Assembly (NCBI GenBank): GCA_000965745.1
Contig: CP009479.1
Location: 186,001 to 250,000 of the forward strand
DNA from: an uncultured archaeon
GTDB lineage: Archaea > Thermoplasmatota > Thermoplasmata > Thermoplasmatales > Thermoplasmataceae
DNA length: 64,000 nucleotides
Reading direction: 5' to 3'
Positions 28,549 through 63,007 of the stretch are shown piece by piece. A program made the position numbers and the translations under genes. The notes below the pieces were generated by a model, which was not told where the DNA came from, made no database searches, and worked only from the letters and a program-made list of their open reading frames with translations. Each line of letters starts with the position of its first letter. Positions within the stretch are counted from its first letter, which is position 1.

Positions 28549-29213
28549 GATACATACACCCGGGAGGTGGATATTATGTTTGACCCGCCATATGGCTGCA
28601 TTCAGGCAAGGAAGCGAAAGTGGCTGTGGACGAAGCCTTATACGCCGTGATTCCTGAGCCAACTGAAAACCAGAGTTGAGGTGCAGAATGTGTGCCGCTT
28701 CATTCTAATCATACATTAAGGGCTTGTCCTGCGGCGTGCGTGAATGGCCTCACTATTGTCCCGTTCTACCTGCATTGAACCGGTTCCTGCATTTGTGCTT
28801 GCAGAGTGCAATAGTCTCCAGTCTGCAAAGAATCCGGATATTGCATCACTTTTGAGAAAATGGTGTCCTGGCCCAACAGTTTCAGGGGAGGTATAATGGG
28901 GGAGTTCACTGCCTGTGTGCGGCCCTCCTCCTATCCGTACATCCTGCTTCATCAATGCCCCCTTACGCCTTCTTGATGATCTTGTCCGTGGATGAACTTC
29001 ACGAAATTTGAGGAAGTAGCCTCGATTTCGAGTGGGGAAAGAACTTGCCGTCGCAGGGTAAATCTCGAGAGCAGCAGTGTCCTGATGAAGCCCGTTCAGA
29101 GAAAAACTATTATAGATTCTGATATTAACCGACTTGCACAGGAGGAATGGCGTTTCCTCAAGAATGTGAACCGCCGGCGGCAGCTGGCTGATGACGCCTG
29201 AATTAAGCCGTAG
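28549..29213. other. 665-base gap without a confident gene
   Basis: Holds the minus-strand promoter of the preceding gene. A 69-codon plus-strand frame (28992-29201) ends just before the hydrogenase-like operon but shows no family features or clear promoter, so it is not called. The operon promoter should lie in its last part; no strong TATA is evident. Confidence 0.4.
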
Positions 29214-41754: not shown

Positions 41755-41896
41755 TGGGAGCACTGGGATTTGAACCCAGATCTACGGGTCTCTTCCCGGT
41801 TCATAGTTCCAGTCACTCATCATCAAGATCAGTTGACCCATAGCTAATCATACCCTGACTGGAGCCCGCTAGGATGCCTGACTACCCCATGCTCCC
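41755..41896 (-). tRNA. tRNA-Trp (CCA) with 69-base intron
   Basis: Exon 1 is 41859-41896: acceptor gggagca, D arm with G18-G19, anticodon stem gcggg, loop C32 T33 CCA G37. Exon 2 is 41755-41789: A38, stem cccgt, variable agat, T arm ctggg-ttcaaat-cccag, acceptor tgctccc and A73. CCA is not encoded. The intron lies between 37 and 38, the usual archaeal place. A relaxed bulge-helix-bulge can be drawn: C32, T33 and C35 pair with G67, A66 and G64 of the intron (C34-A65 mismatched), bulges A36-G37-T1 and A68-G69-A38. TTTTT about 25 bases downstream may end transcription. Confidence 0.93.
41790..41858 (-). ncRNA. Box C/D guide RNA within the tRNA-Trp intron
   Basis: In order: box C atgatta (41851-41845), D' ctga (41832-41829), C' atgatga (41823-41817), D atga (41804-41801). 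The nine bases ctatgggtc, ending two bases before D', pair with gacccgtag of the 3' exon (one G-U); the fifth base before D' faces C39. The seven bases gactgga before D pair with tccagtc across exon 1 and the intron start; the fifth base before D faces C34. Thus it predicts 2'-O-methylation at 34 and 39, the same two positions guided by haloarchaeal tRNA-Trp introns. Confidence 0.8.
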
Positions 41897-62073: not shown

Positions 62074-63007
62074 GGCCATTTGCTCAAATATCCTTTTTTC
62101 AATAACCAATTCCAGGAGCCCTTCCTTTATCATGAACAGGTACAAGCTGGGCCGCCTTGTTGAAGACACCCTTTATGTCACGCCCTTTGAGTCACTGTTC
62201 CTGTTCATTAAAGGGAGGATCAGGCCTGAAAACCCTTTTTACAGCAACAGCCTCACCCTGATGAAGGAGCTCCTGCCCGGGAGCTCAGATCTGATACTCT
62301 ACACAGTCTATGAGCAGATGAAATTGAAGGGGCTGTACGTAAAGAAGGAATCCGACTCCCTGTTTTTCAGGAAAAGCCCCAGAAATGAGTACGACGGGCC
62401 CATGAAAGTGATGAGGGAGAGCAGGGATATTTCTTTTCAGGAACTGGCGAGCCTGTCCGGCTCACTTGTCGCCACAGTGGATGATGAGAACGACACGACG
62501 TTCTTCAGGGTTTATGGCGTTGAGCCGGAAGGGTCTGCAGACCTGGGGCTTCCGGGAGGCATCAGCACAGACAGGATATCTGACAGGCACGTTGCACAAT
62601 CGGAAGGGATGCCCGATTGGATAGGAAACGACTTCAGAGGTGTGAGGTTCCTCACCGAGCTTGAAGAGTGCCTTGTGAAGGAAGGAAAGGAAGGCGGCGT
62701 CGAGTGCTCGGAAAATCCCCTTTTCCGGATATACTCCGATCTCATAGGAAGGCGCCTGATCGTCAAGACGGGATTCAAGTACGGGACAAATTTCAGGGCC
62801 TACACGAAAACAATGGAAGAGCACGCGGATTACCTTATACACTTTCTTTCAGGCAGGGATGAATGGTATAAGATCAGCAGGGCGGTACGTGTTTCCCAGG
62901 GTGTTCACAAAATTATGATTTTCGCGGGATTTCTTGATGAAGAAATAAAATATGTAGCTGTTGAAAGAATAAGAGACCCGTTTTATAAGGGCCAAAAAAA
63001 CGATTGA
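62066..63007 (+). CDS. endA: tRNA-intron endonuclease EndA
   Basis: 313 residues from ATG 62066 (62132 is an alternative). The C-terminal catalytic part has Tyr239 (KTGFKYGTNFRAY), His253 (EEHADYLIHF) and Lys282 (VSQGVHKIMIFAG), the Tyr/His/Lys triad. The N-terminal half (KLGRLVEDTLYVTPFESLFL) is a degenerate repeat of the same fold, as in homodimeric alpha2 enzymes. It cuts bulge-helix-bulge introns such as that of the tRNA-Trp gene in this window. Overlaps the GTPase gene. Confidence 0.92.
   Translation: MHRAICSNILFSITNSRSPSFIMNRYKLGRLVEDTLYVTPFESLFLFIKGRIRPENPFYSNSLTLMKELLPGSSDLILYTVYEQMKLKGLYVKKESDSLFFRKSPRNEYDGPMKVMRESRDISFQELASLSGSLVATVDDENDTTFFRVYGVEPEGSADLGLPGGISTDRISDRHVAQSEGMPDWIGNDFRGVRFLTELEECLVKEGKEGGVECSENPLFRIYSDLIGRRLIVKTGFKYGTNFRAYTKTMEEHADYLIHFLSGRDEWYKISRAVRVSQGVHKIMIFAGFLDEEIKYVAVERIRDPFYKGQKND

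Follow-up and report, generated by a model that had tools for sequence, protein, structure and literature searches.

Archaeal tRNA-Trp genes whose intron guides the modification of its own transcript are a known system. Intron guides of this kind have been described for Haloferax and Pyrococcus in reviews (PMC7994747, PMC4033218, PMC11408192), their mechanism is established in both organisms (PMC7994747, PMC2584109, PMC11408192), and PMC2584109 reports the tRNA-Trp intron guide from at least 29 archaea by 2008. The same source presents the Haloferax volcanii guide as a 37/38 intron that carries two guides for two targets and pairs with intron bases, such that methylation takes place before splicing. 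The tRNA-Trp gene analyzed here, which lies in a 64,000-nucleotide window of a complete 2.23-Mb archaeal chromosome (G000:C1:186001-250000), shares the intron position, the dual guide, the two targets and the intron-base pairing, but has an intron of 69 rather than 103 nt, and a C39 faced by a guide G at base 5 (G5) where H. volcanii has U39 (Um39). Judging by its guides, we take Rfam family RF01133 (sR3) to represent the tRNA-Trp introns of Pyrococcus. Its consensus can be aligned with our intron over the full length, and its D guide (carrying UGGAGC) and D' guide (CGGGUC) stand in the same register; the intron nevertheless scores only 23.3 bits against a gathering score of 41 (E 5.6e-4, 401-base search), and Rfam at gathering thresholds returns no match at the intron locus. 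The Pyrococcus guide (sR50) differs further in having canonical terminal boxes, as opposed to UGAUUA and AUGA in the source archaeon. In Methanomicrobiales, Archaeoglobi and Aciduliprofundum, the guides encoded in tRNA-Trp introns resemble ours in C39 with guide G5, in spacing and in the joints used, yet they carry canonical UGAUGA and CUGA boxes and a D guide that pairs with intron CGG or TGG rather than TCA or TTA.

Run with anticodon-loop introns allowed, ARAGORN places a tRNA-Trp(CCA) gene at 41896..41755 on the minus strand (the strand of every element of this gene given below), interrupted at 37/38 by an intron of 69 nt; when the intron is constrained to this position, the split reads 'tccag-Intron-acccg', whereas the default mode misses the gene because it ignores the intron. 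A whole-genome search with our own covariance model detected this as the single tRNA-Trp locus of the genome. Exon 1 (positions 1-37; 41859..41896) ends in CTCCAG, which supplies the anticodon CCA, with C34 at 41862, and G37; exon 2 (positions 38-73; 41755..41789) starts with ACCCG, putting A38 at 41789 and C39 at 41788. The intron between them (41790..41858), which is conserved in relatives, reads from 5' to 3' TCAGGGT-ATGATTA-GCTATGGGTCAA-CTGA-TCTTG-ATGATGA-GTGACTGGAACT-ATGA-ACCGGGAAGAG, and so comprises box C (ATGATTA, 41845..41851), the D' guide GCTATGGGTCAA (41833..41844), a canonical box D' (CTGA, 41829..41832), a canonical box C' (ATGATGA, 41817..41823), the D guide GTGACTGGAACT (41805..41816) and box D (ATGA, 41801..41804).

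Both guides are 12 nt long and set the fifth base before their boxes opposite positions 39 and 34 of the tRNA. Bases 3-11 of the D' guide form a 9-bp duplex (eight Watson-Crick pairs and one G.U, which falls at G42) with a target at 41782..41790 that crosses the intron/exon 2 joint and consists of the last intron nucleotide, A38, C39, C40, C41, G42, U43, A44 and G45, with G5 facing C39. Bases 4-11 of the D guide form eight contiguous Watson-Crick pairs with a target at 41856..41863 that crosses the exon 1/intron joint (U33, C34, C35, A36, G37 and intron nucleotides 1-3), with G5 facing C34. The initial annotation had described a 69-base intron with boxes C, D', C' and D in order, a nine-base D' pairing aimed at C39 and a D pairing aimed at C34 across the exon 1/intron joint; ARAGORN and the sequence confirm this anatomy, including its coordinates, and only the length of the D pairing, put at seven bases, needed to be corrected to eight. 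Taken with the comparative data below, these features make us highly confident that the sole detected tRNA-Trp intron is a dual-guide box C/D sRNA for predicted 2'-O-methylation of C34 and C39 on its own precursor, before splicing.

Examination of 190 distinct introns parsed from relatives bears on the RNA that these guides would act upon. At the exon 1 joint, intron nucleotides 1, 2 and 3 are matched by bases 9, 10 and 11 of the D guide in 188/188, 181/188 and 181/188 cases, respectively, by way of T-A, C-G, A-T and G-C pairs and through intron/guide combinations that include TCA/TGA, TTA/TAA, CGG/CCG and TGG/CCA; guide base 12 does not track intron nucleotide 4, and the D duplex therefore ends there. 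At the other joint, the last intron nucleotide is paired to base 3 of the D' guide in 181 of the 190 (C-G, T-A or A-T; shuffle maximum 122). We also considered that this guide base might follow G37 of the spliced tRNA; it tracks the intron base (T with A 52 times, A with T three times), which favors the precursor as substrate. As the parser demanded G or A at guide base 5 and a D guide containing TGGA or TGAA, columns fixed in this way are not counted as evidence; the covarying columns quoted here were left free in BLAST- and model-derived sequences, and their counts are of sequences, not of independent events. Because guide bases covary with intron bases at both splice joints, the alignments indicate that both guides of the tRNA-Trp intron read sequence present only in the unspliced precursor, in agreement with the statement in PMC2584109 that methylation at 34 and 39 must come before splicing.

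The genome encodes fibrillarin, Nop5, L7Ae and a splicing endonuclease. On the unspliced precursor, or alternatively once it has paired in trans with a second precursor, both kink-turns (C/D and C'/D') would be bound by L7Ae, and Nop5 and fibrillarin would then join the L7Ae-bound intron. Each guide would present its target opposite the fifth base before the box, the D' guide C39 and the D guide C34, to be 2'-O-methylated, a step predicted to precede splicing since both guide duplexes use intron bases of the splice joints. After methylation, the pre-tRNA would refold to a bulge-helix-bulge, from which the splicing endonuclease would remove the intron. In the splice motif (41790-41865), the central helix of CUCC against GAAG forms three of four pairs with a C34.A mismatch, as compared with the 4-bp helix and two 3-nt bulges of a canonical hBHBh' motif. 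Among distinct introns, 74 have GAAG as the helix partner, with the C34 mismatch, 61 have the fully paired GGAG and 43 have GTGG; a protonated A.C pair at C34 is conceivable in acidophiles. The enzyme expected to excise the intron is represented by a tRNA splicing endonuclease catalytic domain (PF01974, 63.4 bits) at 62723..62953 on the plus strand, inside a long reading frame. Some 21 kb separate this domain from the tRNA-Trp gene within the window, and its frame exceeds 380 codons, with a start that may overlap an upstream gene. The window also holds a fluoride riboswitch (RF01734) at 29134-29207 on the plus strand (38.4 bits, gathering score 34).

The pairing at position 39 separates two forms of the system. 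All 190 distinct parsed introns (Thermoplasmata, Methanomicrobiales, Archaeoglobi and others) have C39 with guide G5, the parser having allowed G or A at guide base 5, whereas U39 with guide A5 is seen only in haloarchaeal-type genes (3.7-4.1-Mb genomes of the Methanocorpusculum phylum), which have A38 U39 and the D' guide CTGATATA, with A5 opposite U39. C39 with guide G is thus the common state and U39 with guide A the odd one, probably derived, and the co-change of guide and target is most likely to be placed on the branch leading to haloarchaea and not in the source lineage. The initial annotation had rightly compared the locus with the Haloferax Cm34 and Um39 and had proposed that guide and target changed together; the covariation stands (U39/A5 versus C39/G5), while the implied direction is probably reversed, and the covariation is not special to this lineage. 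The C39 variant is itself already in the literature, a 2018 review giving 'Cm34 and Um39 (or Cm39)' (PMC6313347), and C34 and C39 of Pyrococcus furiosus tRNA-Trp are predicted targets (PMC7668247).

Cm34 is reported in archaeal tRNAs (PMC7668247), while other predicted sites, apparently including C39 of P. furiosus tRNA-Trp, went undetected by mass spectrometry in the same work, and C39 methylation could thus be absent or partial here too. An alternative, which we regard as unlikely though worth weighing, is that only Cm34 is made and that the D' guide/C39 pairing is kept for pre-tRNA order or assembly, disrupting the anticodon stem and holding exon 2 without efficient methylation of C39; in keeping with this, when the precursor is folded by itself, its minimum-energy structure has the D' guide paired in cis to exon 2. 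Such a role fits poorly with the invariant G opposite C39, with the switch of that same guide base to an A facing U39 in the haloarchaeal type, for which experiments have established Um39 (PMC2584109), and with the fixed 12-nt spacing to D', which is what fibrillarin needs. The cultured relatives Thermoplasma, Ferroplasma and Cuniculiplasma would permit a direct look for Cm39, the mark predicted for C39-type tRNAs.

The distribution of the gene is broad. Across 60 relatives, BLAST recovered the tRNA-Trp gene from the majority of genomes at both family and order level. A covariance model (R1) built from 36 genes then found it in 299/349 Thermoplasmata genomes and in 264/296 genomes of a second phylum, that of Methanocorpusculum, both totals including weaker matches that were inspected only in part; among Thermoplasmata, the gene is present in 180/196 high-quality genomes and in 91/94 genera. 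A pattern scan of named genomes in the GTDB collection, in which part of the guide was fixed in advance, returned at least 119 stretches, at least 91 of them directly preceded by CTCCAG, and among the matches listed those with CTCCAG come from Thermoplasmata, Methanomicrobiales and Archaeoglobi. Alignment of relatives' introns, the check that had been proposed for this locus, shows conserved boxes and guide bases that covary with their targets over the 190 distinct introns. This settles that the self-guiding tRNA-Trp intron, among the most conserved, extends through the class Thermoplasmata in its C39 form.

Inspection of the terminal boxes revealed that ATGATTA and ATGA are each one base off the letter consensus, with U for G at base 6 of RUGAUGA and A for C at base 1 of CUGA. 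Box C base 6 and box D base 1 form the 4b:4n pair of the kink-turn (nomenclature of PMC5689011), and the combination of UGAUUA with AUGA swaps this pair from G-C to U-A, the box D change compensating that in box C. Watson-Crick pairing between the two positions is found in 180/190 introns (shuffle maximum 110), as T-A in 89, G-C in 84, C-G in 4 and A-T in 3; the exceptions are nine T.C, one of them a misparse in which box D of locus L169 was misread, and one C.A. The C-G pair is seen in members of families f11, f19 and f21, and the A-U pair in those of f12 and f17, so that independent changes, tallied roughly by family label and not on a species tree, number three families for C-G and two for A-U. 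The tandem G.A core is kept, box C base 4 opposite box D base 3 being A and G in 190/190 and box C base 3 opposite box D base 4 being G and A in 188/190. The source intron thus retains the core of a terminal kink-turn, comprising box C UGA, box D GA, the tandem G.A, a bulged U and a U-A closing pair at 4b:4n. By comparison, Watson-Crick pairing at 3b:3n is no higher than in shuffles (10 versus a mean of 8.7), and we therefore claim covariation for 4b:4n only. The first and second terminal-stem pairs exceed shuffles (L169 left out); in the source genome the first is G.A.

The initial annotation had called the terminal boxes imperfect, which holds with regard to the consensus; the two bases have changed together with Watson-Crick pairing kept, however, which argues against decay in the source genome. 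The exact letter consensus is in any case typical rather than strictly defining, as haloarchaeal-type introns deviate from it as well (box D is CCGA in L353, for example). In a sister genus (g3), L035 and L040 both have AAGA as box D, and L040 has ATGTTTA as box C, a drift that is possibly early decay of the terminal kink-turn. The off-consensus boxes of the source genome and this further drift are what might suggest that the guide has decayed, that its RNP no longer forms and that the intron is now a mere splicing substrate; we consider this very improbable given the compensation between the two altered bases, the retained G.A core, the canonical C' and D' boxes, and the covariation of guides and joint bases across the class.

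The only fresh detail is the paired change in the outer kink-turn of the tRNA-Trp intron. In human box C/D kink-turns, U:U at 3b:3n and G:C at 4b:4n show strong conservation; they also typify archaeal kink-turns and have been tied to L7Ae dependence (PMC5689011). In the literature searched, we found no description of a departure from G-C at 4b:4n with pairing retained, which is no proof of novelty. We suggest tentatively, and with more doubt than conviction, that the Thermoplasmata terminal kink-turn has left G-C at 4b:4n and drifts via U-A, C-G and A-U, with 3b:3n sometimes changed, and that this drift may retune L7Ae-dependent folding and with it a switch between the RNP and splicing folds. 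A homologous RNA that occurs naturally with four different Watson-Crick pairs closing its kink-turn lends itself directly to testing which bases are needed by L7Ae and the box C/D RNP.

Chance is the weakest explanation. The boxes are short, and with one mismatch per box allowed 459/40,000 dinucleotide-preserving shuffles of the intron (1.1%) held four box-like motifs in order; an ordinary tRNA intron with box-like motifs by chance is nonetheless a negligible prospect, already refuted by conservation in hundreds of genomes and by covariation, and at odds with the exact double register, for which no shuffle (0/40,000) reached the real 8 + 9 bp, none going beyond 4 + 5 bp for the two duplexes at 34 and 39 together. 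Across the 2.23-Mb genome, the four-box spacing pattern matches only the tRNA-Trp intron and one stand-alone sRNA, and a reversed control pattern has 0 matches in the same genome. That second match, at G000:C1:750080-750128 (L369), is a canonical stand-alone C/D sRNA (TGATGA..CTGA..TGATGA..CTGA). A separate stand-alone box C/D sRNA is found in Thermoplasmatota MAGs (L100, L126, L144, L156, L165 and L184), with GGGTC as its D' guide and, ahead of CTGA, CTATGAGTG as its D guide; its register fits C34 of a CAU anticodon, and it is probably a tRNA-Met guide.
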